Source: Zoogloea sp. (GTDB lineage Bacteria > Pseudomonadota > Gammaproteobacteria > Burkholderiales > Rhodocyclaceae). Taken from it: a stretch of 64,000 nucleotides of DNA. How positions within the stretch are numbered: the first letter of the stretch is position 1; each line of letters opens with the position of its first letter. The notes beneath the pieces are model-generated. The model was not told the origin of the DNA. It saw nothing but the letters and a program-made list of their open reading frames with translations, and did not search any database. Where the stretch lies: the NCBI RefSeq assembly GCF_023150065.1, contig NZ_JAKLLN010000013.1, positions 62,001 to 126,000 on the forward strand, in the 5' to 3' direction. This document shows positions 3,854 through 53,124 of the stretch, piece by piece. Position numbers and translations under genes: made by a program.

Positions 3854-5994
3854 ATGCTTACCGAGAAAGAAAGGACCCTGATGCGACGCTGCCTTGACGC
3901 CGTTCGTCAGGGCATGCCGGGCTTCACGTCGCGCCAGCCGCAACTGCGGATGATGGCCACGGCGGCGCACGCGCTCGCCGCCATCGGTGATCCCGCCGCA
4001 CGGGAGGAGGGCGCACACCTCGCGGTGATCGAGGCCGGCACTGGGACGGGTAAGACCTTGGGCTACCTGCTGCCAGCGCTGGTGCTGGCCCACCTGCGCG
4101 GCAAGCACCTGGTGGTCGCTTCCTCGACCGTCGCGCTGCAGGAGCAACTGCTGCACAAGGACGTGCCCGCGCTGCGCCAGTGCCTGCCGTTCGAGGTGCC
4201 CTGCGTGGTGGCCAAGGGGCGCGCACGCTACGTCTGCCCGATGCGCCTGGAGAGCGGCGAGCGCACCGGCGCCGCACTGCCCGATGATCCGGACGCGGCC
4301 ACGCAGGACGACACGCCGGCTGCCCGCCCCAGCGGCGTGCGGCTGCTCGGACGGCTGGCGGACGCCTTTGCCAAGGGCACCTGGTCCGGCGATCGGGATG
4401 CCTGGCCGAGCGCCATCCCCGACGCCGACTGGCTCGCGGTGAGCACCGACCGGCAGGGCTGCCTCGGCGGCAAGTGCGCCCAGTTCAAGCGCTGCCCCTT
4501 TTACCTCGCGCGCCAGGAGATGAAGGACGCCGACCTCATCGTTGCCAACCACGACCTGCTGCTGGCGGCGGCGGACATGGAGCCCGGCGCGGTGCTTCCC
4601 GACCTTGCTGACACGATGCTGGTGCTCGACGAAGCCCACGGCCTGCCGGCCAAGGTGGTCGAACACTGCGCCGCACGCCATTCGCTCAAGGGCGCCCAGG
4701 TCTGGATCGAACGGGCGGCGGCGCTCGCCGAGGACGCGGCCGCGGCCCTGCGCCTGGATGTGGCGCTGACCCAGGCGGTGGCGGCCGCGTCGCTGGCGCT
4801 CGACGAGCGGATGGATGAACTGCACGCGGCGGTGGGCGAGCACTGCCGCTTCGAGGCCCAGGCGACCGTCTGGCGCTTTCCTCACGGCATCCTGCCGGAC
4901 CGTTGGCGGGAGATCGGCGCCGGGCTGGCCCAGGCCGCGGCGGCGATGACGCAGGTGCTGCAGGCCGTGCGCGAGGCGATGCTGGCGGCGGCCGGTGATC
5001 GCCCGGCCCAGGTCCAGACGCACCTGTCCGGGCTGGGGTTCTACCTCGCCAAGCTCGCCCACGTCGAGCAGACCTGGGCCTGGATACTGCGCAAGGACGC
5101 AGCCCAGGCCTTGCCCACGGCCCGTTGGGTCGAGCGTCACGCCGGCGCCGCGCACGCGCAGGACTACCTGGTCTGCGCGGCACCGATCGGCGGCGGCGAG
5201 AAACTGCGCGCCCTCCTGTGGAATCGTGTAGGTGCTGCGGTGCTGACCTCGGCGACGCTGCGGGCCTGCGGCCGGTTCGAGCCCTTCCTGGAGGAAAGCG
5301 GCCTGTCCGCCTACCCGGCGCTGCATCGGCTCGACGTGCCGTCCCCGTTCGACTACGCCCGTCGGGCCACGCTGCACATCCCGCGCGTGCGGGCACATCC
5401 GCGGGACGCTGCGGCGCACACGGCCGAAGTGACCGAGCGCCTGCCGGCGCTGCTGGCCTGCGACCTCGGCGCGCTGGTGCTGTTCGCCTCGGGCCGCCAG
5501 ATGCGGGAGGTCTACGACGGGCTGCCCGAGGCCTTCCGCGCACGCGTGCTCATGCAGGGGCAGGTGTCGCGGCAGGAACTGATCGCCCGCCACAAACAGC
5601 GCGTCGACCAGGACGAGCCGTCCGTCCTGTTCGGCCTGGCGAGCCTCGCCGAGGGTGTCGATCTGCCGGGCGACTACTGTACGCACGTCGTCATCGCAAG
5701 CTGCCGTTCGCGGTACCCAGCAGCCCGATGGAGCAGGCCCGGCGCGAGTGGGTCGAACGGCAGGGGCGTTCGGCCTTCATGACGCTCAGTGTGCCCGAGG
5801 TCGGCATCCGGCTCGCGCAGGCCGTCGGCAGGCTGCTGCGCACCGATGAGGACAGCGGGACCGTGACCGTGTTCGATCCACGCCTTGGGAGCACGCATTG
5901 GGGTCGCCAGCTGCTGCGCGGACTGCCGCCATTTCGGATGGTGGTCGGGGAGACGCAGCCAACTCGGCGTCTTGTCTCGACGCCGATGGCCTGA
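3854..5994 (+). pseudogene. dinG: DinG-family ATP-dependent helicase, frameshifted
   Basis: The joined frames give about 713 residues, the usual length of DinG. The first frame (from ATG 3854) has Walker A EAGTGTGKT near residue 60, the iron-sulphur region with cysteines in YVCPMRL and CLGGKCAQFKRCPFY, the VANHDLLLA motif, the DEAH box VLDEAHGL, and GLASLAEGVDLPGDY. The frame breaks at about 5697 (ATCGCAAGCTG, where one A appears missing). The other frame resumes with KLPFAVPSSP and the helicase motif VI region RLAQAVGRLLRTDED. DinG enzymes are superfamily 2, 5'-3' helicases that unwind R-loops and other structures. The gene is inactive if the deletion is real; only the last 100 residues would be lost, but they include motif VI. 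Confidence 0.85.
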
Positions 5995-8880: not shown

Positions 8881-10038
8881 GTGGAACAGATCGAACTGCC
8901 CTGGCTGGCATCGGCAGCTTTTCCCCCAACCATCGCGGCAAGCACGGCCGCAGCCGAGTGCTTTGCCGTGGCGCGCAATCCGCAGATCGACATCGCCCTG
9001 ATGGGCCATGCGCCGGTCTATGTCGGCGTCAGTGGCGGCAAGGACAGCCAGGCGCTGGCCTACCGGATTCAGGCTTATCTCGACACCATCGGGCACGCCG
9101 GAACGCGGGCATTGATCCACAGCGACCTGGGGCGTGTGGAATGGCGCGATTCCATCCTGGTCTGCGAGCGGCTCGCCGAGCGCTTGGGCTGGGAGCTGAT
9201 CGTCGTGCGCCGTGCGGCGGGCGACATGATGGATCGCTGGCTGTCGCGCTGGACAGCGAACGTCGAGCGCTACGCTGCCTTGTCGTGCGTGAAGCTCATC
9301 ATGCCGTGGAGTTCGGCGTCCCAGCGCTTTTGCACCAGCGAATTGAAGTCTGCGGTGATCGCACGCGCCATCCGGGTACGGCACCCGACCGGGACGGTGA
9401 TTTCGGCCGTGGGCATCCGGCGCGAGGAGAGTCCCGCACGATCCCGCGCGCCAGCAGCCAAGCGGGACGAGCGGTTGACCCGCTCGCGTGGGATCGGCCT
9501 CACCTGGAACCCGCTTATCCACTGGCCGCGTAGCGACGTGCTCGACTACATCCGCACGCGTGGGGACATCCTGCATGCCGCCTACCGGATCTACGGCAGC
9601 AGCCGGGTCTCGTGTGCGTTTTGTGTGCTGGCGTCGCAGGCCGACTTGCTGGCCGCCACCCGCTGTGAAGAAAACGCAGCGATCTACCGCGAAATCGTCG
9701 AACTGGAGACTCGCTCGACCTTCTCGTTCCAGAGCAAGCGCTGGCTGGGCGACGTGGCACCGGGCTTGCTCGATGCACCGTTGCTCGCGGCCCTTGTCGA
9801 GGTCAAGGAGCGGGCCGCGCAGCGGCAGGCTGCCGAGGCGGAGATTCCCGCCCACCTGCTCTATGAAGCGGGCTGGCCGGTGAGCATGCCGACGCCGGCC
9901 GAGGCGCGGCACCTCGCATCGGTGCGCCAGCGCGTTGCCGAAGCCGTGGGCATCGCCGTCGATTGCCTGGACGGCGATGCGGTCGGCGCCCGCTACGCGG
10001 CGCTGATCCAGCAACAGACCCAGCGACGGCAGGCATGA
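8881..10038 (+). CDS. PAPS-reductase-family PP-loop protein
   Basis: A 385-residue member of the phosphoadenosine-phosphosulphate-reductase-like PP-loop ATPase family. The signature GVSGGKDSQALA (SGGKDS at 51-56) binds ATP; IHSDLGRVEW and RFCTSELK follow in the family order, and SCAFCVLAS adds a Cys-x2-Cys. Related proteins include DndC-type and IbrA-type enzymes, whose substrates on mobile elements are mostly unknown, so true sulphate reduction is unlikely. The start is GTG at 8881 with AGGAGG upstream. It overlaps the next gene by ATGA and leads a run of three genes up to the ParB gene. PP-loop/ParB pairs resemble IbrA/IbrB. Confidence 0.75.
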   Translation: MEQIELPWLASAAFPPTIAASTAAAECFAVARNPQIDIALMGHAPVYVGVSGGKDSQALAYRIQAYLDTIGHAGTRALIHSDLGRVEWRDSILVCERLAERLGWELIVVRRAAGDMMDRWLSRWTANVERYAALSCVKLIMPWSSASQRFCTSELKSAVIARAIRVRHPTGTVISAVGIRREESPARSRAPAAKRDERLTRSRGIGLTWNPLIHWPRSDVLDYIRTRGDILHAAYRIYGSSRVSCAFCVLASQADLLAATRCEENAAIYREIVELETRSTFSFQSKRWLGDVAPGLLDAPLLAALVEVKERAAQRQAAEAEIPAHLLYEAGWPVSMPTPAEARHLASVRQRVAEAVGIAVDCLDGDAVGARYAALIQQQTQRRQA

Positions 10039-10638: not shown

Positions 10639-12408
10639 ATGGACACACCGAACCATCCCACCCTGCCGCTGCGCCGCATCGTGCAGGGCAAGAACCCCCG
10701 CGAATACTTCGACCCGGCGGAAATGGCCGAGTTGGAGGATGGCCTGCGCGCTGCCGGCCGCGTCATCCAGCCCATCCTCGTCCGCCCGATCCCCGGCACC
10801 GACCGCTACGAAATCGTGGCGGGGGAGCGCCGCTGGCGCGCCGCCCAGACCGTCTTCGGCGACGACTACGACATGCCCGTCGTCATCGAGGCACTGAGCG
10901 ACGAGCAGGCCGAAGCCTTCGCCACCATCGAAAACCATCACCGTGCCGCCATGTCGCGCGCCGAGGAGGCGCAAGCCGCCCGCCGCCAGTTGATGCGCCA
11001 CAAGGGTGATAAGGACGAGGCGGCGGCAGCACTTGGCTGGAAGCCCGAACTGCTGGAGCGACGGCTGGCGCTGCTGACCTGCACGCCCGCTGTGTTGAAG
11101 GCACTCACGCACCGGCAGATTCAGCTTGGTCACGCCGAACTGCTGGCCGGGGTGCCGCCTGAGAAGCAGAACGCCGTGCTGACCGGTGTGATTGCGCACA
11201 AGGTGCCGGTGGGCGTCTTGAAGGAGCAGCTTGGCCGCTTCGCCCGCCGTCTGGCTGACGCCATCTTCGACATCGCACAGTGTGCGGCCTGCCAGCACAA
11301 CTCGTCTCGCCAGTCCGGGCTGTTCGACGCGAGCCTGGGCGACGGCTTCTGCCAGCACCCTACGCACTACGACGAACTCACGCAGCAGGCCGTGGCGGCG
11401 AAGGCGGCGAGCTTGGGCGAGCAGTACCCCATGGTTCGCATCGTCAAGGCGACCGATGGTTTCTTGCCGCTGTCAGTGGCCGAGGACGGCGCGCTCGGTG
11501 TCGGCGCAGCACAGTATGCGGCCTGCAAAGGCTGTGCCTCCTTTGGTTGTGCCGTCTCGGCCATGCCGGGCACGCAGGGCGAAGTGACGACTTCCCTGTG
11601 CTTCGATGCGGCTTGCAACAGCCAGAAGGTCGCCGCGTGGGTGAAGGCGCAGCGCGAGAGCACGAAGCAGGAGAGGACGTCTGACAAGGCCGTGGCCCAA
11701 GGCAGCAAGCGCCAGCCGGCGTCCAAGACGAATGCCAAGCCCGCCACTGCGCCGAGCAACAAGACGCCGCAGCGCGTCGTGGACTACCGGCTCATGCAGT
11801 GGCGCAAATGGGCCGCGAAGGAACTCATGGTGCAGCCAGAGCGCAACCGGCGCGTGATGGTCGCTTTGGCGCGCTCGGGCCGGGCCAGCGACGTGCGCAG
11901 CACCGAGTACGGGCAGGCGGCGAGCCGGATCGCCGGCGCGGGTGCGATGGAGGGAACGGGCTTTCGCGGCCTGCTGCAAGAGGTGGATGCCATCGACGCA
12001 CAGCACCTGGAACGGCTGACCCTCGCGGTCACCGCCGCAGCCGCGTTCGGCGTGACCACGCACGACTTGGAGGCGCTGCTGAACTACCTCCAGGTCGATG
12101 AGGCAAAACACTTCAAATGGGACGCTGCCTTCCTTGAACTATTCACCCTGAGCGAACTGGACGCCCTGGCCAGTGAGGTGGGGCTGCGCGCAAAGATAGG
12201 GGCGAGCCTTTACAAGCTGGCCCGCGAGAAGAAGAAGGCCGACTTCATCAAGGCGCTGCTTGCCGTTTCGGACTTCCCCTATGACGGCTCCGTCCCGGCC
12301 GTCATGCGCTATCCACGCAAGACTGAGCAGCCCGAAGTCGAACCGCTCGACCCCGATGCGGCCGAGGAGGTAGAAGGCGCCGACGAGGACGCCGCCTTGG
12401 CGGCGTGA
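10639..12408 (+). CDS. PRTRC system ParB-family protein
   Basis: A 589-residue protein with an N-terminal ParB/Spo0J nuclease-like domain (about residues 10-110; IVAGERRWRAAQ and the TIENHHRAAMSRAEEA helix), followed by a helix-turn-helix-like segment (DEAAAALGWKPELLERRLAL). The middle has cysteine clusters (CAACQHN, GFCQHPTHY, CKGCASFGC, CFDAACN) that could bind zinc. The C-terminal third is helical with an acidic tail. The start at 10639 has AGGAGG upstream; in-frame GTG 10570 and ATG 10612 are weaker. ParB proteins are CTP-dependent DNA clamps in segregation, but here it leads the PRTRC cassette and no ParA is adjacent. A terminator-like hairpin follows directly. Confidence 0.85.
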   Translation: MDTPNHPTLPLRRIVQGKNPREYFDPAEMAELEDGLRAAGRVIQPILVRPIPGTDRYEIVAGERRWRAAQTVFGDDYDMPVVIEALSDEQAEAFATIENHHRAAMSRAEEAQAARRQLMRHKGDKDEAAAALGWKPELLERRLALLTCTPAVLKALTHRQIQLGHAELLAGVPPEKQNAVLTGVIAHKVPVGVLKEQLGRFARRLADAIFDIAQCAACQHNSSRQSGLFDASLGDGFCQHPTHYDELTQQAVAAKAASLGEQYPMVRIVKATDGFLPLSVAEDGALGVGAAQYAACKGCASFGCAVSAMPGTQGEVTTSLCFDAACNSQKVAAWVKAQRESTKQERTSDKAVAQGSKRQPASKTNAKPATAPSNKTPQRVVDYRLMQWRKWAAKELMVQPERNRRVMVALARSGRASDVRSTEYGQAASRIAGAGAMEGTGFRGLLQEVDAIDAQHLERLTLAVTAAAAFGVTTHDLEALLNYLQVDEAKHFKWDAAFLELFTLSELDALASEVGLRAKIGASLYKLAREKKKADFIKALLAVSDFPYDGSVPAVMRYPRKTEQPEVEPLDPDAAEEVEGADEDAALAA

Positions 12409-12434
12409 GCGCCGCAGCCACTGGAAAACCCCCG

Positions 12435-12473
12435 ATGCCTTCGTAGCATGGTCTTCGAAGGCATTTCTTTTTT
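12435..12473 (+). terminator. Intrinsic terminator or attenuator after the ParB gene
   Basis: ATGCCTTCG (12435-12443) pairs with CGAAGGCAT (12456-12464) across a 12-nt loop and is followed by TTCTTTTTT (12465-12473). This is a textbook intrinsic terminator. It lies between the ParB gene and PRTRC E, and the Shine-Dalgarno of E (GAAGGAG) begins right after the T-run. It may therefore limit expression of the downstream PRTRC genes or separate two transcription units. Confidence 0.75.
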
Positions 12474-12486
12474 GAAGGAGCGTGAC

Positions 12487-12987
12487 ATGACCCTGTTTGC
12501 AGAACTCTATGCGCTGGCCCTGACCGCGACGCTGACCATGACGGTGAGCGCCGACGAGAAGTCGGGCCGGCTGACCGTGAATGTGATTCCCAAGCCGCGC
12601 AAGGACGTGAGCGAGCCGACGCTGACGCAGCCCCTGAGCCTGACGGCGACCCCGCAGGAATTCGATGAGGGTTTCATCGCGGCGCTGACCGGCTACCGCG
12701 AGGTGCGCCAAAGCCTCGCGCAGCAGGCGGAAGCGACCAAGGAGGTGATCGAGGCGGCGAAGGCCGCTTCGGTGAAGAAAGCCAGCGATGCGGCGAGCAA
12801 GGCCGCCAAGTCCGGTGCCGCCACCGGCGTGACCAGCAAGGTGGCGAGCCCCGCGAACATGCCTGTCCAGGCGACGCCCGCAGAGGATGACGACGAGGGA
12901 GCCGACACCGCCTGCACGAGCGCCACGCCCGCCGCTGCGGCAACCGCAGCAACGGCGGGTGCCGAGTCCTACGACCTCTTCGGTTGA
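12487..12987 (+). CDS. PRTRC system protein E
   Basis: A 166-residue protein matching PRTRC protein E in position and in its opening (MTLFAELYALALTATLTM, then beta-strand residues SGRLTVNVIPKPR). The first 80 residues appear folded, and YREVRQSLAQQAEATKEVI forms a helix. The remaining 70 residues are Ala/Thr/Asp-rich and disordered, ending YDLFG. The start is fixed by GAAGGAG at 12474-12480. The biochemical role of E is unknown. It is separated from protein C by 112 bp containing small hairpins. Confidence 0.8.
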   Translation: MTLFAELYALALTATLTMTVSADEKSGRLTVNVIPKPRKDVSEPTLTQPLSLTATPQEFDEGFIAALTGYREVRQSLAQQAEATKEVIEAAKAASVKKASDAASKAAKSGAATGVTSKVASPANMPVQATPAEDDDEGADTACTSATPAAAATAATAGAESYDLFG

Positions 12988-13051
12988 GCGCCACCGAAGC
13001 GCCGCGACGTGGGCTTGCAACCGCCCCTTCGGTTGAGAGACTGGATTCCAA

Positions 13052-13071
13052 GGCGGTCGAAGGCGACCGCC
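13052..13071. other. Perfect 8-bp hairpin between PRTRC E and C
   Basis: GGCGGTCG (13052-13059), AAGG loop, CGACCGCC (13064-13071). A second small stem, CAACCG/CGGTTG, lies at 13018-13035, and an 11-nt direct repeat CTTCGGTTGAG occurs at 12978-12988 and 13027-13037. The hairpin has no T-run, so it is not an intrinsic terminator. It may stabilise or process the mRNA ahead of the protein C gene. Confidence 0.4.
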
Positions 13072-13099
13072 ATCTCACCGAACCAAGGAGCAAAACACC

Positions 13100-13567
13100 A
13101 TGTCGATTGCAGTTCTCGAAATCAGGCGATCCTTCCGCTACAACGGCATCATGCTGCCGGACGTGCCGGGGTTCGAACCCCGCGAAGTGCGCGACCTCTA
13201 CAGCGCGCAGTACCCCGAACTCGTGAGCGCCGAGGTCGAGCCCGGCGAGGTGCGCGACGGCGTGCAGGAGTTCAATTTCCGCAAGGCGGTCGGCACCAAG
13301 GGCGCAGGCGTTGCGCCTGCCGGGGTGCAGGCCGAAGGCGGCGAGGCCGGCCCGCGCCTTGCAGCCCTGTTGGCGACGATTCAGGCCGACGAGGCAGGGG
13401 CGAGCGGCGCGCAGTCCAAGTTGTCCGCCGCGCTGTCGCGCCGTAGCGTGCTGGCCCGTTCGACGGCGATGAGCCGGTTCGCCCAGGCCACCCTGGCGAA
13501 GCCGCACCTCGATGCGCGCCCGCACCGCTCGGCGGCGACAAGCGACATGCTGGCGCCGGTGGCATGA
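13100..13567 (+). CDS. PRTRC protein C (ubiquitin-like) with long C-terminal tail
   Basis: Residues 1-68 match PRTRC protein C, a predicted prokaryotic ubiquitin-like fold: IAVLEIRRSFRYNGIMLPD, then EVRDLYSAQYPELVSAEVE, and the ending FNFRKAVGTKG. Protein C is usually about 70 residues. Here the product is 155 residues because of an 87-residue Ala/Ser-rich tail containing EGGEAG (79-84) and a helical segment. If C is conjugated through a C-terminal glycine, the tail would need removal, a job suited to the JAB protein A downstream. The start has AAGGAG at nine bases. Its stop overlaps the ATG of protein F (ATGA). Confidence 0.8.
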   Translation: MSIAVLEIRRSFRYNGIMLPDVPGFEPREVRDLYSAQYPELVSAEVEPGEVRDGVQEFNFRKAVGTKGAGVAPAGVQAEGGEAGPRLAALLATIQADEAGASGAQSKLSAALSRRSVLARSTAMSRFAQATLAKPHLDARPHRSAATSDMLAPVA

Positions 13568-14646
13568 CGCCGAACCTGAACATCGGCATGGACAGGCCAG
13601 TCTTCGCCGCGATGCCCATCCTGGCGCTGCCTCAACTGAGTGGGAAGGTGCCGCTGTCGGTGGCCTCGCGTTCGCAGGCCAAGGCGAACGCGGGGCTGTG
13701 CCGTTGCCTGATCGATGCGGGCATCGTGCATGAGGATGCGCTGCCCGCGAACGAACCCGATCCGCTCAAAGCCTGCCAGCAGGCTATCGACGCCTGGATC
13801 AAGCGCCTGATCGGGCCGCTGCACTGCCTGCAACCCCGTGTGGCGATCAACGTGCTCGACGAGCACCAGCACCACCCGGCCAGCCGAGAAGGCAAGCAGA
13901 GCGCCTACGCCTACCTCGACCTGTACTGGTGCGAGTACCACGAGAGCGAATGGCCGGTGGGCCGGCAACTGGAAGCGCTGAATACGGCGATGCCGGGCCT
14001 CGGGGCCACGGTGTTGCAGGTGCTGCGCGAGCAGAGCCGCTACGTCTATCCCGTCTTCACCCCCGACATTGCCGACGACGTGTCGTCCTATCTGTACTGG
14101 CAGGGCGAGTCGGACGAAGAGGCCGCGCTCGACATGATGTGCGAGGACGACAACGAAGCCGACCGGGAGGCCATGCGCGACGAAATGGTCACCCGCGCAA
14201 TGCTCGACGCCGCCTATCCCGAGTGGGCGCGGCGCTGGCTGGTGCGACCGGAGAAGGGGAGGCGTCGGCGCAAGGGCGAGGCGGCCCTGCGACTCTGCGA
14301 TCTGCGGCGTGCAGCCAAGACCCTGACCGACCCTGCGATGCGCGCCATCGTCGCCGACGCACTGGCGCTGTCCAAGCTGGCGCTGGACGACAGCTTCCGG
14401 CCCGACATCGACGGCGAGTACATCGGCTTCGGGGCCGTGCTGTCCTGGGACGAGGCCGACATCACGACGCGCATCTACGACGACCTGCTCAACCTCGCGC
14501 ACCAGTCCGAGTTCTGCGACCGCATGGGCGAGGCAGTGATCTCGCTCGACGACCCCGGCGCGCTCGGTGCTTGCTTTGCCCGCCTGGGCCTGCGCTTTGA
14601 GGCCATCGCGCTGATCGACCGCTTGATTCACGCCCTGAGCGACTGA
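13564..14646 (+). CDS. PRTRC system protein F
   Basis: A 360-residue protein corresponding by position and length to PRTRC protein F; its function is not known. The N-terminal half carries a conserved-looking LHCLQPRVAINVLDEHQHHP segment. The middle is very acidic (SDEEAALDMMCEDDNEADRE). The C-terminal region (DADALAL-type helices, GEYIGFGAVLSWDEADITT) looks globular. It has no membrane span. It starts inside the stop of protein C, so it is translationally coupled to it, and ends 26 bp before protein B. Confidence 0.75.
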   Translation: MTPNLNIGMDRPVFAAMPILALPQLSGKVPLSVASRSQAKANAGLCRCLIDAGIVHEDALPANEPDPLKACQQAIDAWIKRLIGPLHCLQPRVAINVLDEHQHHPASREGKQSAYAYLDLYWCEYHESEWPVGRQLEALNTAMPGLGATVLQVLREQSRYVYPVFTPDIADDVSSYLYWQGESDEEAALDMMCEDDNEADREAMRDEMVTRAMLDAAYPEWARRWLVRPEKGRRRRKGEAALRLCDLRRAAKTLTDPAMRAIVADALALSKLALDDSFRPDIDGEYIGFGAVLSWDEADITTRIYDDLLNLAHQSEFCDRMGEAVISLDDPGALGACFARLGLRFEAIALIDRLIHALSD

Positions 14647-14672
14647 GACTGTTCTCAGGAGGTCATTCCAAG

Positions 14673-15422
14673 ATGAACGAAGCCGAGTTTTCCATCCACA
14701 CCCCGACCGAGAACGTGCTGACGCTCGATCAGGCGGTGCTGCTCTACCACGGCCGCAACGGCGGCGCGCTGGCCACCGTCCACGAGGTGATGACCGTGGA
14801 CGGTGCGCCGGTGATCGGCGCGGGCCGCGCCATGACCGCGCAGGCGGCACGCGAACTGGCCGCAGCCTTGCTCCAGCGGGTGGCCCACAGCGGCTTCCTG
14901 CCCGAGACGGTGCTCTACGTGCATGGCGACCTGATCCTGTGGTGGGTACCGCCTGCACGCCGCCACATTGCCTTCCGGGTGGATGGCGACCATGCCGAAG
15001 CCTTCGGCGGTGGCGAGCGCGGGGAGACGGTGCCGCTGCCGGGGCTGGTCTTCGCGGCATCGAGCCGGACGTGGGGCGTTTGGGCCGTCAAGGGAAGCCG
15101 CCGCCCGACGCCGCAGACCCCGCTGTACCAAGCCCCATTCTTCAACGTCAATGGGCAGGGCGGTATCTGCCAAGGCAATGTGCCGAAGCCCGAAGGCACC
15201 ACGGTGGAGAAGATCGAAGCCTGGAACGATGCCTTCTTCCGCTCCTACTTCACCCACCCGAACGTGACCGGCAAGCTGCTGCGCTACCGGGGCGGCGCCT
15301 ATGCCTTCTGGCGCGACATGCTCGACCGGCGTTTCGCCCGCTTCCCGGAGCGCGTGCTGGTCGATGTCAAGACGACGCTGGGCGGGCTGCTCGGAGAAAA
15401 AGACCGCAAGGGGGCCGCATGA
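14673..15422 (+). CDS. PRTRC protein B (E2-like)
   Basis: A 249-residue protein corresponding to PRTRC protein B, a family classed among prokaryotic E2-like (ubiquitin-conjugating-like) proteins. It has one cysteine only, Cys166 in NGQGGICQGNVPKPEG, a loop position expected for the catalytic thioester cysteine. The preceding beta-rich region (LILWWVPPARRHIAF; TWGVWAVKG) fits the E2 sheet, and FERVLVD-type helices follow. The start has AGGAGG upstream. The stop overlaps the ATG of protein A. Its predicted partners are the ubiquitin-like C and the E1-like ThiF protein encoded in the same run. Confidence 0.8.
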   Translation: MNEAEFSIHTPTENVLTLDQAVLLYHGRNGGALATVHEVMTVDGAPVIGAGRAMTAQAARELAAALLQRVAHSGFLPETVLYVHGDLILWWVPPARRHIAFRVDGDHAEAFGGGERGETVPLPGLVFAASSRTWGVWAVKGSRRPTPQTPLYQAPFFNVNGQGGICQGNVPKPEGTTVEKIEAWNDAFFRSYFTHPNVTGKLLRYRGGAYAFWRDMLDRRFARFPERVLVDVKTTLGGLLGEKDRKGAA

Positions 15423-16120
15423 TGGACGTGCGCGATCAAGCCTTGCTGGCCTCCTGCCCGGTGGTGGCCGCACCGCGTTTCAGCCCGCTGCCGGACATGG
15501 CCAACGGCCAGCGCATCATCGTGGCGAGCAACGGCTGGTTCGTCCAGACCCGGCTGGACTGGCTCGACTGCATCACCGCACTGAGCCTGGATACCCCGGC
15601 GATGCGCCTGCCCTACGGTGAAGTCCGGGAGCACCTGCGTTTCAGCTTCGGCCAATTGCCGATCCCGCTGATCGAGGCGTTTGTCGCTCATGGCCGCAAG
15701 CACCTGCCCGATGAAGCCGCTGGTGTGCTGATCTACTCGCGCGGCACCGGGCGGCTGCGACTGGCGTTCTGCGAGGCAGTGCGGGCCTCACCCGTTCGCA
15801 TCGACTACCGAAGGCCACCGATGGCCGACGACGAAACCGTGGCCGTGGACCTGCACACGCACGGACGGGCTCCGGCGTTCTGGTCAGCCGACGACGACCG
15901 GGACGACCAGGGCATCAAGGTGGCGGGGGTGTTCGGTCTGCTGGATCAGCCCAAGCCGATGGCGCGGTTCCGGCTGGTGATCAACGGCCTGTACCAGGAC
16001 TTGCCGCGCCACCCGTGGCCGGGGCCTGATGCGTTTGCGGACAGGGTGGACGGCGAGGAATCCGCCCCTTGGCCGAACCGCTGGATGCGCAGCGTCATCC
16101 GCCGCTGGACAGGCGCTTGA
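15419..16120 (+). CDS. PRTRC protein A (JAB/JAMM metallopeptidase-like)
   Basis: A 233-residue protein with a complete JAMM zinc motif: Glu99 (LPDEAAGVLIY) and H146-x-H148-x7-S156-x2-D159 (DLHTHGRAPAFWSADD). This is the active site of JAB deubiquitinase-like peptidases, which cleave isopeptide bonds or process ubiquitin-like precursors. The N-terminal 90 residues (QRIIVASNGWFVQTRLDWL) are specific to the PRTRC family. It is coupled to protein B by an ATGA overlap and followed by the E1-like gene 51 bp later. A role in maturing or removing protein C is the natural inference. Confidence 0.85.
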   Translation: MMDVRDQALLASCPVVAAPRFSPLPDMANGQRIIVASNGWFVQTRLDWLDCITALSLDTPAMRLPYGEVREHLRFSFGQLPIPLIEAFVAHGRKHLPDEAAGVLIYSRGTGRLRLAFCEAVRASPVRIDYRRPPMADDETVAVDLHTHGRAPAFWSADDDRDDQGIKVAGVFGLLDQPKPMARFRLVINGLYQDLPRHPWPGPDAFADRVDGEESAPWPNRWMRSVIRRWTGA

Positions 16121-16171
16121 AAGCGGCCCCCGGCGCGGGACACTGAGTGCAACACGTCATGGAGGCTGTGC

Positions 16172-17011
16172 ATGGAACATCGAATTGATCCCCGACTGTT
16201 GGAGCGCCGGGTGCGTTGCCATCTGGTCGGGGTGGGGGGCAATGGCGCGCAGATGGCGACATGCCTTGCCCGGCTGGACATTGCGATGCGCGCCCTCGGC
16301 CACCCGTACGGGCTGCATGTGCAGGCCTTCGACGCCGACCGGGTGAGCGAGGCGAATGTCGGGCGGCAGTTGTACAGCGCCGCCGACCTCGGCCGATACA
16401 AGGCGCTGGTGACGGTGCATCGGCTCAACCAGTTCTACGGCCTCGACTGGGACGCCTACCCGATGCGCTACGAGGACTACGTGGAGGGGCACCGGATTTC
16501 AGGTGGCGCTGACATCCTGATCAGTTGCGTGGATAGCCGCGTGGCACGCCGCAACCTGCATCAGTTCCTGTTCCGCGATCACGTTCCGTGTCGCTACTGG
16601 CTCGACCTGGGCAACACGGAAACCACTGCCCAAGTGGTGCTGGGCCAGCCGGACAACCACGCTGTGCTGCGCAACGCGGGCGATGCCCCGAGACTGCCGT
16701 GCGTCACCGAGCTTTTCCCGGAACTGCTCGACGAGACGGTCGTGGAGGACAACCAGCCATCTTGCTCCGTTCGCATGTCGCTGGCCTCGCAGGGGCTGTT
16801 CGTCAATGACGTGGCCGTGCGCTTCGGTGCGCTGCTGCTCTACGAACTTTTCTCCCGTGGCGGACTGGGCCAGCACGGCGTGGTCATCAACCTCGACAGC
16901 AAGCGAACCGGCCCCATCGAGGTCGATCCTCGAACCTGGGCGCGCTTCGGATTCCGGCATTCTCAAGACGATGCCCACGCAGAGCCTGCAGCCGAGGAGG
17001 CCATGGTATGA
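16172..17011 (+). CDS. PRTRC ThiF-family (E1-like) protein
   Basis: A 279-residue E1/MoeB/ThiF-type adenylating enzyme. It shows the nucleotide-binding GVGGNG (20-25), the Asp/Asn/Arg signature FDADRVSEANVGRQ (Asp54, Asp56, Asn62, Arg65) and the ISCVDSRVARRN helix. Candidate catalytic cysteines for thioester transfer are Cys177 (RLPCVTELF) and Cys198 (NQPSCSV). The MoeB-type zinc Cys-x2-Cys pairs are absent. Such enzymes adenylate the C-terminal glycine of a ubiquitin-like protein using ATP. GGAG precedes the ATG at 16172. The 3' end overlaps the next small gene. Confidence 0.88.
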   Translation: MEHRIDPRLLERRVRCHLVGVGGNGAQMATCLARLDIAMRALGHPYGLHVQAFDADRVSEANVGRQLYSAADLGRYKALVTVHRLNQFYGLDWDAYPMRYEDYVEGHRISGGADILISCVDSRVARRNLHQFLFRDHVPCRYWLDLGNTETTAQVVLGQPDNHAVLRNAGDAPRLPCVTELFPELLDETVVEDNQPSCSVRMSLASQGLFVNDVAVRFGALLLYELFSRGGLGQHGVVINLDSKRTGPIEVDPRTWARFGFRHSQDDAHAEPAAEEAMV

Positions 17012-17315: not shown

Positions 17316-17666
17316 ATGGCACGCAAACGCACCCTGCAAGAGATCGACCGGGAAATCGCCAAGCTGAATCAGGAGGCGGATGCCATCCGCGCATCCGAGA
17401 AAGCAGAAGTGGCGGCCAAGATGAAGGACGCCATTGCCTACTATGGCTTCACGGCCGCCGACCTCGGTCTGGCTCGCGGCGGCAAGAAGGAGGCGAAGGC
17501 CAGCACCAAGGCCAAGCCGAAAGCGGGCAGGGGTGCTGGCAGCGCCCCGGCACGCATCAAGTACAAGGATGATGCGGGCAACGCATGGTCGGGGTTTGGC
17601 CGCAAGCCCAAATGGTTCGTCGAGGCGCTGGCCAGCGGCAAGACGGCCGAGCAACTGCTCGCCTAG
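17316..17666 (+). CDS. H-NS-family DNA-binding protein
   Basis: A 116-residue histone-like protein. The N-terminal helix (RTLQEIDREIAKLNQEADAI) is the oligomerisation coiled coil, the middle is a Lys/Ala-rich linker, and the C-terminal KYKDDAGNAWSGFGRKPKWF is the H-NS DNA-binding hook (W-x-G-x-G-R-x-P). H-NS proteins bind curved AT-rich DNA and silence foreign genes. Carriage on the element may limit the fitness cost of acquisition or regulate element genes. It lies 107 bp after the PRTRC run and is probably expressed separately. The start has only a weak ribosome site. Confidence 0.88.
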   Translation: MARKRTLQEIDREIAKLNQEADAIRASEKAEVAAKMKDAIAYYGFTAADLGLARGGKKEAKASTKAKPKAGRGAGSAPARIKYKDDAGNAWSGFGRKPKWFVEALASGKTAEQLLA

Positions 17667-18151: not shown

Positions 18152-19354
18152 TCAGCGCTCCTCGGGCATCTCTTCATCGCCCGGCGTACTCGGCTTCGCG
18201 TCTGGCGGCTGGGCCTTCTGCGCCGCTTGCCGCGCCAGCAGTCCCCCTAAGTAAGCTCCCGAGGCGCGGGGGCGATTGTGGCCAGCCAAGCGGGCAGCCG
18301 AAAGCCTGGCTTGCGCATCCACATCCGGGGGCACGTCCGTTCTGCCGCGCACCGGGGGTGCAACCCCGGCCTTCGCGCTGTAGTGGTCGATCAATGCTTC
18401 ATGCCGCAGACCGTGCGACGTGGCGCCCAGCCCTTCCTTGGTGAGCTGAAAGCGTCCCATCACGTAGTCGAAGCGCCGCAGGTTGCGATCCAGGCTGCGG
18501 CGGGGATCGCCCATGTGTGCGTCGTCATCCGTGGCCAGCGCCTGGGCGAAACGCAGCGCCGCCATGCGCTGCGCTGAATCCAGCGGGACGAAGCGCAGCC
18601 GCCCCCCTTTCGCGCCTTCCTTGATCCGCACGTAGCTGTCGGCCTGTCGTTCTTCGGACGGCAGCCCCGTGGCCTCGAACGGCACCACGCAGCGATGCGG
18701 TCGGAACATGACCGATTCCTTCCTCCGCAGGCCAAAGGCGCGCATCAGCTTGAGCGACGCTCCGATGTAGCGGTCGTAGAGGCACACCTCTTCGATCACC
18801 GCGTCGATGTCGATGCCGGCCGCCGTCCAGCTCTTGTCGCGCTCGGCGTTTTCGTGGCGCTGGTATTCGGCGGGCGTCAGGCCGTAGTGATCCGGCTTGC
18901 GGATGAAGCCCGGCTTGCCCAACCACATCGCCAGTCCCCGCAGGAAACTCAGGTAGGTCTGGATCGTGGCCGGCGCCAGCCGCTCTTTCTGCCAGACGGC
19001 GACCATGGCCCGGATGTGGCGATCCCCCAGGTTGCGCGGGTCGGGCACCATCTTGAAACCGGCCTTCTGGTGCAGGTCGCGGAAGAAGCGCCGCAGGAAG
19101 TCGGCGCGCTCCTGCCGGGTCTTGTGCGAGACGGTCTTCTCCCGTGCGGTGTGCTGGGCGTTGTACAGGGTGATCAGCAGGTCAAGCACACGCATGGGAT
19201 CGGCGTGGCCGGGCCGCAGCCGTTCAAGGGCTTGCTCCGGCGACAGGGTGGCGCGCTCCTGGTCGCGGCGCGGCTGGTGATGGTGGGCGTCACGCCACGC
19301 GCCCAGGGAACCCTGGACACGGCGGGGGGCGTGTTGTGTGTTGAATCTGGACAT
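18152..19354 (-). CDS. Integrase-domain tyrosine recombinase
   Basis: A 400-residue tyrosine recombinase of the integrase-domain type common on plasmids and ICEs. The N-terminal core-binding region (KTRQERADFLRRFFRDLHQK) precedes the catalytic domain, which has Arg in FGLRRKESVMF, His-x-x-Arg-like HGLRHEALIDH, and His/Tyr in LAGHNRPRASGAYLG. The C-terminus is Pro/Gln-rich. The start at 19354 is supported by GGAG seven bases upstream; an upstream in-frame extension lacks this. It is the second recombinase of the element and far from the border, so it may act in resolution or inversion rather than integration. Confidence 0.82.
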   Translation of the reverse strand: MSRFNTQHAPRRVQGSLGAWRDAHHHQPRRDQERATLSPEQALERLRPGHADPMRVLDLLITLYNAQHTAREKTVSHKTRQERADFLRRFFRDLHQKAGFKMVPDPRNLGDRHIRAMVAVWQKERLAPATIQTYLSFLRGLAMWLGKPGFIRKPDHYGLTPAEYQRHENAERDKSWTAAGIDIDAVIEEVCLYDRYIGASLKLMRAFGLRRKESVMFRPHRCVVPFEATGLPSEERQADSYVRIKEGAKGGRLRFVPLDSAQRMAALRFAQALATDDDAHMGDPRRSLDRNLRRFDYVMGRFQLTKEGLGATSHGLRHEALIDHYSAKAGVAPPVRGRTDVPPDVDAQARLSAARLAGHNRPRASGAYLGGLLARQAAQKAQPPDAKPSTPGDEEMPEER

Positions 19355-20559
19355 GGCAAATCTCCGACAGCAGTGCCGTGAGCCGTCCCGGCGGCGCACA
19401 GCGGGAATGGGGTGGAATCCATCGGTTCATCGCCTCGCGGATTCCGATGCGCGGGCGATGCGTGGTCAGGTGTTTCAGCAAGGCGTGCGACCACGAGCGC
19501 GCCATGCCTACCCAGGGGTTTGCCGGTGAGGCGCGGGATGCGCGTCAGCCGACTCGGTCGTTCTTAAAAATGAACACGGTGATCCGTCTCGCTTTCGCAT
19601 TTCTGCGTTCGTCGAGAGTTGGGATGCCGTCCCGCCTCATGGGCCGGGAACAACATCGGCGCCAAGGTCTGGCCTTGCGCGCCATGGGGGATCAATCCTC
19701 TGAATGCGTAGCGTCATCCCCCTGCATGGGTCCGCCCCTTGACCGAAAGTCCAGGGCAGTGCGAGGTTCACGAGCGAGGGGCACATGGGGAGCCCAACAA
19801 GGGGCCAACACAGCCATGTGCTGCGCGAAGTGCGCGTGCTCGAAGGGATGACGGGAACAGCGGCGCGGCATCAGGTGCCGGCCGGGGAACTGCTCGAACG
19901 CAGGACTCGTTCTCGGGGAACGTCTGGCAGATGACTGCCAGCAATGCACTGCGCTGCTCTACGGGGGAAACACTTCGGGCATGGGCTCAAGGGGCCATGC
20001 CGAGCCCGATTCATGGATCGGGACTTGAAGAGGCGGGTAACGACCGCAACGCCTTTCGCTCCGCGATGGAGCAGGCCAGGAGGCCTCGGGAGACTGTAGT
20101 TCACACCCAGGCCGCGATCGGGTCAATGACGAGCAGGGCCGCGCCACCCACTTGACGCCAGAACGGCGGCGTTTGCGGGTGGCCCTTGAAATTGCAACGC
20201 GAGGGGCGCTTATTTTTGGAAAGCCCTCCGGAATGGCCCGCCGCCTGGGGTTGACATTGCTCTTGCCTGCCTCTGGTTTTGATCGTGAGGGTTTCGATGC
20301 CCATTGACCCCTGGGAGCGCCCTCGGCGCTGAAAGCGTGGTCTTGACGACGTCCGATCCAGTGAGACCGTAGTCCGACACGGAAGACGCGGGGCGGCGTG
20401 GTCGGAGGTACTCGACCTGCACACGGCCTCGGCTCGTATCGGCTGGGAACACAGTCCGAGCTGATTGCGAGAACGAGGCTTTCCCCAGCGATTTCCGTGT
20501 GGAACGGTCGCATCGACAAACCGATGCTGACCCCTCTCGAACCCATACAGGAGTCATTC
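19355..20559. other. Hairpin-rich non-coding region B
   Basis: No convincing gene in 1.2 kb; the open frames here have poor composition and no ribosome sites. Small stems include GGCAG/CTGCC near 19926-19939, GGCATGG/CCATGCC (19978-20001), CCCGAT/ATCGGG (20005-20022) and GCTCC/GGAGC (20058-20072). Copy B of the structured element is at 20005-20093. Near the right end is a weak sigma70-like -35 (TTGACA, 20251-20256) without a good -10, then the 5' region of the PRTRC D gene with AGGAG before its ATG. It resembles region A in character. Confidence 0.5.
20005..20093 (+). ncRNA. Duplicated structured element, copy B
   Basis: Hairpin CCCGAT/ATCGGG (20005-20022) leads into the core AAGAGGCGGGTAACGACCGC (20028-20047) plus AACGCC (20048-20053). 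Hairpin GCTCC-GCGAT-GGAGC (20058-20072) and GGCC-AGGA-GGCC follow. The core differs from copy A (950-975) by one base in 26, while the flanking stems differ in sequence but keep their positions. Copy B sits upstream of the actin-like segregation gene; copy A lies 19 kb away in the same orientation. It is a candidate structured RNA or single-stranded DNA signal of the element. Confidence 0.5.
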
Positions 20560-21588
20560 ATGGACTTTGTCGTCAGAGCCGTCGACGTCGGCTTCGGAAA
20601 CACCAAGTACGTCATCAGCGCGTCCGGCAGCGAAATTCGCTGCGCCAGCTTCCCGTCAGTCGCCTATCCAAGCATGCGGGAACCGTCCGCCCAGCCCGGC
20701 TACGAGCGACGCAAGACGGTGGCCATCCCGATCAACGGTCTCTTCTACGAGGTCGGTCCAGAGGTCGAGCTGGCGGCGGATACCTTCCGCGCGACCCAGA
20801 TGCACGACCGCTACACCGAGACGCCCGAGTACATGGCGCTGCTGCGCGGCGCGCTGGCCCTGATGAAGCAGCCGTCGATCGACCTGCTGGTCGTGGGGCT
20901 GCCCGTGGCGGCACTCACTACGAAGAAGACCGCACTCGAGAAGGCCGTGACCGGAACCCACGACATCGGAAACGGCAAGACCGTGGTGGTTCGCAAGGCC
21001 TTGGCCATCGCCCAGCCCCAAGGCGCCCTGGTGGACTTCGCCGTCCAACATGGCAAGGGCGCCACCATCGAGCGGGAGCAGAGCCTGATCCTCGATCCGG
21101 GCTCCCGGACCTTCGATTGGCTGGTGGCCAGGGGCATGCGCCTGGTGCAGGCCAAGAGCCATTCGGTGAACCGGGGCGTCTTCGACATCCTGCAGGCTAT
21201 TGCGGCCGAGATCGGGCACGACATCGGGACGCCGTACAACGACATCGAGGCCATCGACCTGGCACTGCGCACGGGCAAGAACCCGGTGATCTACCAGAAG
21301 CCCTACGACATCTCCCGAGCCATGCCCATGGCGCATTCGATCGCCCAGCAGGCCGTGGCGTCGATGATGCGCTGGATCGACGCGAGCTACAGCTTCCAGA
21401 ACATCATCCTGGTGGGTGGGGGCGCATACCTGTTCAAGAAGGCGGTGAAGGAGGCTTTCCCCAAGCACAAGATCCTGGAGGTCAAGGATCCCTTGCATGC
21501 CAACGTCCGCGGTTTCCAGATCGCCGGCATGAACCACGCGCCCAAGCTCCTGGGAGCACCGGTGGTCGCGGTGCAGGGAGGTGCGTGA
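20560..21588 (+). CDS. PRTRC protein D (actin-like ParM/StbA-type ATPase)
   Basis: A 342-residue actin-fold protein. The phosphate-1 loop is AVDVGFGNTKYV (Asp9), the phosphate-2 loop is LILDPGSRTFDWL, and the adenosine motif is IILVGGGAYLFKKAV. This matches PRTRC protein D, a relative of the plasmid-segregation filaments ParM and StbA, which push plasmid copies apart using ATP-driven polymerisation. The start at 20560 has AGGAG at spacing six. In this element D is split from the main cassette by the H-NS and recombinase genes. It is followed with a TGATG overlap by a ParR-like gene, as in ParM-ParR operons. Confidence 0.85.
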   Translation: MDFVVRAVDVGFGNTKYVISASGSEIRCASFPSVAYPSMREPSAQPGYERRKTVAIPINGLFYEVGPEVELAADTFRATQMHDRYTETPEYMALLRGALALMKQPSIDLLVVGLPVAALTTKKTALEKAVTGTHDIGNGKTVVVRKALAIAQPQGALVDFAVQHGKGATIEREQSLILDPGSRTFDWLVARGMRLVQAKSHSVNRGVFDILQAIAAEIGHDIGTPYNDIEAIDLALRTGKNPVIYQKPYDISRAMPMAHSIAQQAVASMMRWIDASYSFQNIILVGGGAYLFKKAVKEAFPKHKILEVKDPLHANVRGFQIAGMNHAPKLLGAPVVAVQGGA

Positions 21589-23738: not shown

Positions 23739-24995
23739 TCAGGCGGCCCGGCGCAGGGGTACGACGGTCCAGGGAAGTCCCTGTTCGCAAGCCAGGAGGA
23801 AGGCCGCCCACAACTCGAGTGCAGCCTGACGCTCCGGGAGGTAGTCGTACTGGTCGTAAATCTCTTCCATGCCTTTCAGCACATGGTTCAGAGATCTTTC
23901 GGACACCTCGTTGGAGACGCCCATGGCCTTCATGTGTGACTTCACCGTACTCCGGGTGTCATGCGGGGTGAATCTCCGGATGTCCAGGCCACCTCTTTCA
24001 AACCTGCGGGTCAGCGCTGCCCAAAGTGTGCTGTTGCCGACGTGGGTGTCCCCACCGAGTCTGGCGCGTCTGTGACCACGACGAGCGGGAAGAACCCAAC
24101 GCGAGTCCCCGGCACACTTCTTCAGCTCCCGGAACCATGAAACGACTGTCGGGCACAGCGGTACTACGTAGCCGCGTCGCGTCTTCACCGTTTCTTCGGT
24201 GACGATCCAGGTGCCCTTGTCCAAATCCACGTTGGCCCACTGCGCCTTCACAAGCTCGATCGTCCGCACGCAGGTTGCGAGCAGGATTCTGAAGGCGAGG
24301 GCGTTTTCGATGCCGATGGAGTTGATGTCTGGCAGCAGCGTCCGCAACTCGTCTTGAGACAGCATCAACCTGCGGCGTACGGGAGGACGTTGGCCAATGA
24401 CCGAGATCAGATCAATTCCAACGGTTGGATTGACATGGATGAGCCGTTTCCCGAGGGCATGGGCGAACAGCCGGTTGCAGGTCGAACGAAGCCGCTTGCA
24501 CATCGTCCAAGTCCGCCCTGAATCGGCGATCATGCCGACGATGTCTGCGGATGTCACGCTCGTGACCAGCATGGCACCGAGCTTGGGAATGATCACCTGG
24601 TCGAGGTCTGCGTTGCGGGCTTCCTGAGTGCTTTCCGCAAGTGCCACAACAATCTTCTCGCGATAGTCCTCGGCGAGCTCTCGAACACTCCAGGTGGTTC
24701 GGACGCGAATCTTCTCCTGCTTTTTTGTGATCGCGGGGTCGCCACCCTTGTCGATCTCAACGCGCTTTTCGCGTGCAAGTTGGCGTGCGGCAGGGAGGCT
24801 GATGTCGGGGTAGTTGCCCAGCGTCAGTTCTCTGGAGCGCCCTCCGAACTGGTAGCGGAGAACCCAGGTGGCCGTACCGGCCGCAGACAGGGTGAAGGTA
24901 AGCCCGTCGCCGTCGGTTCTGGCGATGGGTTCGCGTGCACGCACCCAGTGCTGGAGCTGCACCGGCGTCAGTAGATTCTTGCCTCTTTTTGCCAC
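23739..24995 (-). CDS. Tyrosine-recombinase integrase (P4-type)
   Basis: A 418-residue phage P4/CP4-type integrase with an N-terminal DUF4102-like arm-binding domain (DGLTFTLSAAGTATWVLRYQ; RELTLGNYPDISLPAAR), a SAM-like core-binding domain, and the catalytic domain with Arg in ATCVRTIELVKAQW, His-x-x-Arg in TPHDTRSTVKSHM, His in LNHVLKGMEEIYDQY and a terminal Tyr. I chose GTG at 24995, which has GGAGG at eight-base spacing; a TTG at 25049 lacks one. It lies at the border with the chromosome and probably mediates integration and excision at an att site in 25,050-25,290. No tRNA gene is at this border. Confidence 0.9.
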   Translation of the reverse strand: MAKRGKNLLTPVQLQHWVRAREPIARTDGDGLTFTLSAAGTATWVLRYQFGGRSRELTLGNYPDISLPAARQLAREKRVEIDKGGDPAITKKQEKIRVRTTWSVRELAEDYREKIVVALAESTQEARNADLDQVIIPKLGAMLVTSVTSADIVGMIADSGRTWTMCKRLRSTCNRLFAHALGKRLIHVNPTVGIDLISVIGQRPPVRRRLMLSQDELRTLLPDINSIGIENALAFRILLATCVRTIELVKAQWANVDLDKGTWIVTEETVKTRRGYVVPLCPTVVSWFRELKKCAGDSRWVLPARRGHRRARLGGDTHVGNSTLWAALTRRFERGGLDIRRFTPHDTRSTVKSHMKAMGVSNEVSERSLNHVLKGMEEIYDQYDYLPERQAALELWAAFLLACEQGLPWTVVPLRRAA

Positions 24996-25090
24996 CTTGA
25001 TGTCCTCCGGGCGCTCTCGGGGGACGATAGGCCGAGGGCATGTCTTCAACAGCTCTTTTGCTTCGAGCAGAGGCGCAACATCAACTTCTT

Positions 25091-25136
25091 AGCTACGTCC
25101 CTGGCTACAAATTCTAGCTACGAAGCCAGCTACAAA
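25091..25136. repeat. Four AGCTAC-type repeats upstream of the integrase
   Basis: AGCTAC at 25091, GGCTAC at 25103, AGCTAC at 25116 and AGCTAC at 25128 are spaced 12, 13 and 12 bp. The larger unit, AGCTACG-N6-GCTACAAA, is tandemly repeated with a 25-bp period. Short direct repeats of this kind next to an integrase are typical of arm-type binding sites for integrase or excisionase, or of an operator for the integrase promoter. The following 100 bp are clearly AT-rich compared with the rest of the window, fitting an att region. Confidence 0.5.
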
Positions 25137-25290
25137 GCAAGCCCGACATGTCCTGAAACGGTGGGGTATGAGATGGCTAAAAACTGTTGTTTGACAATAG
25201 TTTATATAGGTTCCGATTGGGACGTCTTGACACGTTTTGATGTTGCATTAGGCATTGCAGGTGGCGATTTTCATGGGGTGATTCAGGTCC

Positions 25291-25776
25291 TCAGCGCTTG
25301 GCGGCCGGATAGCCGGCGTTGTCCAGCAGGCCTTGCCAGAGGGGCTCGGCCAGGCCGGATTCGGTCTGTTTGCCGACCACCAGGGTGGGGACGAAGGGCT
25401 CCTTGCCGAAGCGGGCCTTGAAGGCTTCGACCTGCTCGGCGCTGTCGATGGTGGTTTCGCTGAAGGGCACGCCGCGCTTCTGGAGCAGGGCGCGTCCGTC
25501 CTCGCAGGGTTTGCCGCAGTCCTTGCTGGTGTACAAGGTCACCGGGAAGCTGGCGACCGCCTTGCGGGTCAGGAAGGGCGTCTGGGCGTTGCCCCGGTTG
25601 GGTTGGACGTTGCGCTCCTCGAATTTCTTGATGGCCTGGGGGGGCGGCTGGTCGCTGTACTGCACGCGACCCTGCTCATCCACCCAGCGATAGGCGCTCT
25701 GGGCGGCGGCCGGCCCCGCGCCGGCGAGTGTCACCAGCAGCAGGGACAGCAGCGCGCGGGGGCCGGCGGGTTTCAT
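25291..25776 (-). CDS. DUF4124 and glutaredoxin-like secreted protein
   Basis: A 161-residue protein with a signal peptide (LLSLLLVTLAGAGPAAAQSA), a DUF4124 segment (YRWVDEQGRVQYSDQPPP) and a C-terminal glutaredoxin-like fold. The fold begins VTLYTSKDCGKPCEDGRALL, with a Cys-x3-Cys redox centre, and ends with VPTLVVGKQTESGL. It is probably periplasmic and acts on disulphides. The ATG at 25776 overlaps the stop of the oligopeptidase gene. This is the first chromosomal gene beyond the integrated element, and its 3' end faces the element. Confidence 0.8.
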   Translation of the reverse strand: MKPAGPRALLSLLLVTLAGAGPAAAQSAYRWVDEQGRVQYSDQPPPQAIKKFEERNVQPNRGNAQTPFLTRKAVASFPVTLYTSKDCGKPCEDGRALLQKRGVPFSETTIDSAEQVEAFKARFGKEPFVPTLVVGKQTESGLAEPLWQGLLDNAGYPAAKR

Positions 25777-53047: not shown

Positions 53048-53124
53048 TGGGGAGTCGCCAAGTTGGTCAAGGCACCGGATTTTGATTCCGGCATTCGAAG
53101 GTTCGAATCCTTCTTCCCCAGCCA
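53048..53124 (+). tRNA. tRNA-Gln (anticodon TTG)
   Basis: A 77-nt cloverleaf including an encoded CCA. The acceptor stem TGGGGAG pairs with TTCCCCA (one G-T pair). The D arm is GCC-AAGTTGGTCAA-GGC, the anticodon stem is CCGGA/TCCGG with loop TTTTGAT and anticodon TTG at 53082-53084, and the T arm is GAAGG-TTCGAAT-CCTTC. The discriminator G is followed by CCA. It lies between ispE and prs and is likely co-transcribed with them. Confidence 0.95.

Follow-up and report, generated by a model that had tools for sequence, protein, structure and literature searches.

A PRTRC cassette in a Zoogloea genome

The stretch of DNA analysed here (the window; 64,000 nucleotides, positions 62,001-126,000 of contig NZ_JAKLLN010000013.1 in assembly GCF_023150065.1, Zoogloea sp.) contains at 10639-17011 a complete PRTRC cassette with the gene order ParB-E-C-F-B-A-ThiF, and protein D is encoded farther on (Table 1). 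In profile searches, the seven cassette proteins and D each score above their curated NCBIfam cut-offs (in the range TIGR03734-TIGR03742), and Pfam agrees wherever a model exists (Prok_Ub, Prok-E2_D, DUF2016 with Prok-JAB, and ThiF), which confirms the seven-gene cassette that an earlier note had recognized by reading the DNA. The host assembly has a single PRTRC_B match and a single Prok_Ub match, both in this cassette.

The same families, in the same order and with D farther on, occur on annotated plasmids and correspond to the operon type described from sequence in row 6d of Iyer, Burroughs and Aravind 2006 (PMC1779556). The reading of the cassette as a ubiquitin-like pathway, which the earlier note also reached, was thus already in print as a prediction; it is sound but not new. 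Our literature searches found no experimental study of PRTRC and no experimentally supported role for it, and in the accessible part of PMC7466150 the cassette is annotated only. In this known yet hardly studied system, the sequence suggests a maturation route for the ubiquitin-like protein and a possible docking site. What we add is the precursor form of protein C, its link to protein A, and an LF tail on protein E with sliding clamp genes nearby. We consider that the cassette is probably a compact ubiquitin-like conjugation system with C maturation, kept by plasmids and islands.

Protein C extends beyond its ubiquitin-like core

Full-length C has 155 residues rather than approximately 68, a point that the earlier note missed: a 68-residue core is followed by a further 87 residues. 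The structure model of C has the beta-beta-alpha-beta-beta order of a beta-grasp fold and matches ubiquitin and SUMO with modest Z scores, which, together with the Prok_Ub match, upholds the claim that C is ubiquitin-like. Comparison of C with ThiS and MoaD profiles (hhalign) gave a best probability of 7.8, which is not significant, and a PDB sequence search with C returned nothing credible.

To compare cassettes we read 68 loci, of which 65 were usable for counting A and the C tail. Four entries (L025-L028) were dropped as short copies of loci reread as L081, L082, L089, and L092, two (L011 and L012) because the contig ends before A is whole, and one (L035) because C was not found; L003 was counted even though its B is identical to that of the window and it is probably the same organism. 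A glycine stands at the end of the C core in 64 of the 65, as a single Gly (KG, RG, NG) and not as GG. In 30 of the 65 cassettes the protein ends at this residue, whereas in the window 87 residues follow Gly68, so that the glycine would become terminal only after cleavage. The model places Gly68 within a low-confidence stretch (residues 65-82) that is followed by helices.

In an alignment of close relatives, the extension is present in 17 of the 18 other sequences (L022 is without it). It follows an invariant G-x-K-G and consists of a linker of variable length and a module whose end is conserved, in most sequences as ...LxPLP and in the window as SDMLAPVA. We rejected the idea that the extension is peculiar to this genome, since 19 other members of the 23-member cluster have it; the members without it are L022, L029, and L083. 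Seven cassettes of other clusters have C extensions of 59-82 residues. Some of these, L036, L044, L047, and L101, end in a tail of the form Leu/Ile-Pro-hydrophobic. A similar end is carried by a small open reading frame of its own directly after C in L030, L034, and L042; this likeness of modules across clusters is one of tail pattern. In Diaphorobacter aerolatus (L010, 6473-7459, + strand), the frame of C changes inside the extension and continues to 328 residues, and we counted this locus as extended despite the frame change.

In eukaryotes, ubiquitin can be synthesized fused to the front of a ribosomal protein, from which it is released after its glycine. The partner of PRTRC C is instead an uncharacterized helical module, from which C would be released in a comparable manner.

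An extended C was found only together with the JAMM protein A

JAMM enzymes carry a conserved glutamate upstream of the motif HxH-x7-S-x2-D. In A of the window, the motif reported in the earlier note is intact (H145-x-H147-x7-S155-x2-D158), and Glu98 lies upstream of it; all five residues are kept in 18 of 18 distant cassettes.

Of the 65 usable cassettes, 17 have no A, and every one of these 17 has a C that terminates precisely at the glycine. Among the 48 cassettes with A, C continues past the glycine in 35, by at least 59 residues in 27 and by 1-13 residues in 8, and ends at it in the other 13. The association between the presence of A and the extension of C is seen over the 65 loci (Fisher test, 6e-8) and persists after dereplication by B identity at 70% (35 clusters, p = 0.0002), 50% (24 clusters, p = 0.006), and 40% (22 clusters, p = 0.015). 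On a tree, the C tail accounts for eight changes. The rule that an extended C occurs only with A therefore has no exception in 65 cassettes, and we grade its support at the lineage level as moderate; only about three A-less groups put it to the test.

We rejected the possibility that A is merely displaced in the A-less cassettes. Nine plasmids have no Prok-JAB match anywhere on their records (including L035, which is outside the 17), and PRTRC_A has no match in six genomes or in two of three further records. The L043 plasmid has one other JAB match, weak and far off. Prok-JAB also matches in 8 of 14 control genomes, which means that a protein of the host might substitute for A. The third further record, the Pelobacter plasmid L032, does have a displaced A and was counted as having it; on the circular record this gene occupies 1598-2167, away from B and ThiF. 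C of this plasmid (5550-5753, + strand) ends in TKA, the sole core of the 65 without the glycine, and is among the eight with a continuation of 1-13 residues.

The simplest reading that fits this pattern is that A matures C and becomes dispensable where the gene already ends at the glycine. Several observations weigh against it. C ends at the glycine in 13 of the 48 A-bearing cassettes; dereplication at 35% leaves 14 clusters and p = 0.07; and the absence of A amounts to three changes on the tree. These observations also favor an alternative in which the C extension is a gene fusion that is never cut, A acts solely as a deconjugase, and the pattern of A and tail stems from shared ancestry. In an uncut fusion, however, the conserved glycine would be buried inside the chain and useless for E1 chemistry; moreover, the junction is modeled as a low-confidence linker whose length varies while the glycine does not. 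We consider this alternative unlikely, although it deserves to be taken seriously. Under the preferred reading of A as the maturation protease, its retention beside a mature C suggests a second role, the removal of C from targets.

ThiF, B, and the proposed conjugation route

The active residues of ThiF, B, and A do not decay in distant cassettes. In ThiF, G20, G22, G23, G25, D121, and C198 are invariant (25 of 25), and against solved structures its profile lies closest to ubiquitin-activating and NEDD8-activating E1s, followed by ThiF and Cap2. Protein B has a single cysteine, Cys166, which is kept in 28 of 28 distant cassettes along with N158, G168, and P173; the histidine after it, presumably the "absolutely conserved" one of the 2006 paper, is missing in 3 of the 28. 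Loss of the JAMM and cysteine residues in relatives, which the earlier note had named as grounds against its reading, was thus not seen. Its description of B as E2-like with one cysteine stands as far as the Prok-E2_D match and the lone Cys166 go; B had no match at E <= 1 among PDB sequences, and Foldseek with the B model gave nothing significant, with no E2 among the matches listed.

The protein families, conserved residues, topology of the C model, extension, its pattern with A, and the tail of E (see below) are directly supported, and on these we propose the enzymatic steps that follow. C would be made as a precursor, and A would cut after Gly68, freeing the ubiquitin-like domain from the C-terminal module. 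To judge from its residues and kinship, ThiF would then adenylate the glycine and form a thioester on Cys198, from which C would be handed to Cys166 of B. B would transfer C to a protein target, from which A could also remove it. Cassettes in which the C gene ends exactly at the glycine would need no maturation and could lose A.

ThiF with a beta-grasp partner is an arrangement common to ThiS and MoaD systems, and C could accordingly be a sulfur carrier like ThiS, with ThiF making a thiocarboxylate for the modification of a small molecule, DNA, or RNA. A PAPS-reductase-like gene upstream of the cassette (8881-10038, + strand), which recurs near the cassettes of the distant plasmids L040, L045, L049, and L103, would suit this route. 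The plain route, however, has no place for a JAMM protein or for an E2-family protein with an invariant cysteine, the ThiF profile is nearest to ubiquitin E1s, and C ends in a single glycine rather than GG. Together these make a sulfur carrier improbable.

The conjugation system proposed here has a known counterpart in Bil (BilABCD, the bacterial ISG15-like system), which likewise unites a ubiquitin-like protein, E1, E2, and JAMM protein in one operon and in which, according to the part of PMC11354881 consulted, the JAMM protein BilC exposes the glycine of the ubiquitin-like BilA. PRTRC differs in that C has one ubiquitin-like domain rather than two, in its additional ParB, E, F, and D, and in its plasmid or island context. 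Bub is named as a further kind of bacterial ubiquitination-like operon in the accessible text of PMC13373217; the A profile matches BubCD of Citrobacter weakly (E 0.33). In the literature found, as far as its accessible parts go, bacterial systems of E1, E2, JAB, and ubiquitin-like proteins with studied roles concern immunity or stress, and the cassette might by analogy be an element-carried system directed against phages or plasmids, comparable to CBASS, Bil, or Bub. Against this, NCBIfam and Pfam profiles assign none of the cassette genes to an effector or cyclase family, the PRTRC ParB gene adjoins the cassette in most plasmids fetched, and genes for SSB, DnaN, and helicases are often near. 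A defense role thus seems to us quite unlikely.

The tail of protein E and nearby sliding clamp genes

The earlier note had also suggested that a protein encoded by the element, perhaps ParB or the actin-like filament protein (D), is modified. The union of the cassette with ParB and D does not reveal a target, and nothing found shows either of them modified.

Protein E consists of an N-terminal part that is conserved, an acidic, Ala-rich linker that diverges quickly, and a C-terminal LFG that is invariant in 17 of 17 close sequences. An L[FW] followed by at most three residues ends 16 of 25 lineage representatives of E, versus 55 of 1,648 background open reading frames (p = 4e-18; the background comprises frames of at least 150 residues from the same loci and includes some E proteins and non-genes). 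Over all loci the count is 41 of 66. Elsewhere in the cassette the tail is found in none of 21 ParB, 25 C, 25 B, and 25 ThiF proteins and in 2 of 17 A proteins. The LF/LW tail resembles the beta-clamp motif Q-L-x-L-F, described in the text consulted of PMC4549789 as often C-terminal and weak in consensus. A PDB sequence search with E gave nothing credible.

DnaN matches are found on 11 of 22 cassette plasmids (10 above cut-off); two plasmid DnaN queries (tblastn) hit 411 and 452 of 72,556 plasmid records overall, a comparison in which the methods differ and plasmid size is uncontrolled. Of these 11 plasmids, 5 have the clamp gene no more than 5 kb from the cassette (0.43 expected, P = 3e-5), and 9 have it no more than 25 kb away (2.15 expected, P = 1e-5). 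In the window's own assembly, DnaN matches occur only on another contig, so the host clamp would be the partner here.

E probably recruits the other cassette enzymes to a docking partner, for which the beta sliding clamp is the leading, if weak, candidate. Taken further, PRTRC would be a bacterial counterpart of PCNA ubiquitination and SUMOylation, in which E docks the enzymes on the DNA polymerase III beta clamp of plasmid or host. C would be joined there to the clamp itself or to a replication protein bound to it, so as to control how large plasmids and islands replicate or what copy number they reach, and would be taken off again by A. Several points count against clamp docking: the first Gln of the motif is not conserved, with the full motif only in L041 (QLTLF); 9 of the 25 E representatives lack the tail, including those of Pseudomonas and of Alteromonas, Shewanella, and Vibrio; and a general clustering of replication genes could explain the proximity of clamp genes. 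We regard this extended scheme as a long shot. Were the clamp link true, bacteria would have a clamp-directed ubiquitin-like system; to our knowledge, such systems are known only from eukaryotes.

Genomic context and distribution

Table 1. Features of the PRTRC cassette and its flanks in the window.
Feature	Position	Strand	Basis or remark
PRTRC ParB-family protein	10639..12408	+	TIGR03734 7e-214; ParB_N, HTH_ParB
PRTRC protein E: N-terminal part, variable acidic/Ala linker, LF tail	12487..12987	+	TIGR03741 2e-29, alignments; listed open reading frame begins 12448
E C-terminal tail, SYDLFG codons	12967..12984	+	LFG kept in close sequences
PRTRC protein C, ubiquitin-like core, end ...AVGTKG (Gly68)	13100..13303	+	TIGR03738 8e-29, Prok_Ub, structure model
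C extension past Gly68: linker, helical module, conserved tail	13304..13564	+	alignments, model
PRTRC protein F, alpha-helical family; start overlaps C stop codon	13564..14646	+	TIGR03742 1.5e-100, PF14456
PRTRC protein B, Prok-E2_D; Cys166 codon 15168-15170	14673..15422	+	TIGR03737 1.5e-79, PF14460
PRTRC protein A, DUF2016 and Prok-JAB (JAMM); start 15419 or 15422	15419..16120	+	TIGR03735 4e-60, PF09436, PF14464
PRTRC ThiF/E1-like; Cys198 codon 16763-16765	16172..17011	+	TIGR03736 3e-90, PF00899
H-NS-like protein adjoining the cassette	17316..17666	+	PF00816 2e-12
Tyrosine recombinase (Integrase_1) between cassette and D	18152..19399	-	PF12835 6e-8
PRTRC protein D, actin/ParM-like; family match from residue 61 of the open reading frame	20398..21588	+	TIGR03739 6e-159
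P4-type integrase, right end of island	23742..25049	-	PF00589, PF13356

The P4-type tyrosine integrase abuts chromosomal housekeeping genes that run from 25773 onward, which places the cassette within an integrated island, close to its right end. The mobile element assumed in the earlier note is borne out to this extent. The left end and transfer genes were not found in an upstream scan of 10 large open reading frames (three each for TonB receptors and ABC transporters, one each for an acylase and a methylase, and two that match no family); none of the 10 belongs to a conjugative family, and no search was aimed at relaxases. For an att-like repeat of the right end (24951-25800), the longest shared sequence in the 124 kb examined is 14 bases, in an unlikely place. 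There is no tRNA at the right boundary, the sole tRNA (53048-53124) being distant. No near DNA match was found among plasmids, and three scans of viral contigs found no relative.

The PRTRC cassette is a module with a patchy distribution over large plasmids and islands. A tblastn search with B finds a B-like gene in 309 of 72,556 plasmid records, P. aeruginosa megaplasmids included. Among sampled genomes, PRTRC_B was present in 5 of 397 for the phylum, 3 of 360 for the class (including a weak match below cut-off), 12 of 399 for the order, and 5 of 398 (4 above cut-off) for the family of the Pseudomonas-like match, whose kinship is presumed. The samples overlap, and those of phylum, class, and order, though not that of the family, include the window's own genome. 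Among 22 loci found for the B protein, the nearest is 100% identical and comes from a Zoogloea metagenome assembly, and the other relatives belong to Comamonadaceae, Rhodocyclales, and allied beta-proteobacteria. On the Deinococcus gobiensis plasmid (L035, 4872-7648, + strand), ThiF precedes B, and the stretch read has no recognizable C, E, A, or ParB.

Farther upstream of the cassette, the window encodes a helicase with DEAD_2 and Helicase_C_2 domains (3854-5782, + strand) and a SMEK_N-domain protein (PF21941; 6614-7654, - strand).

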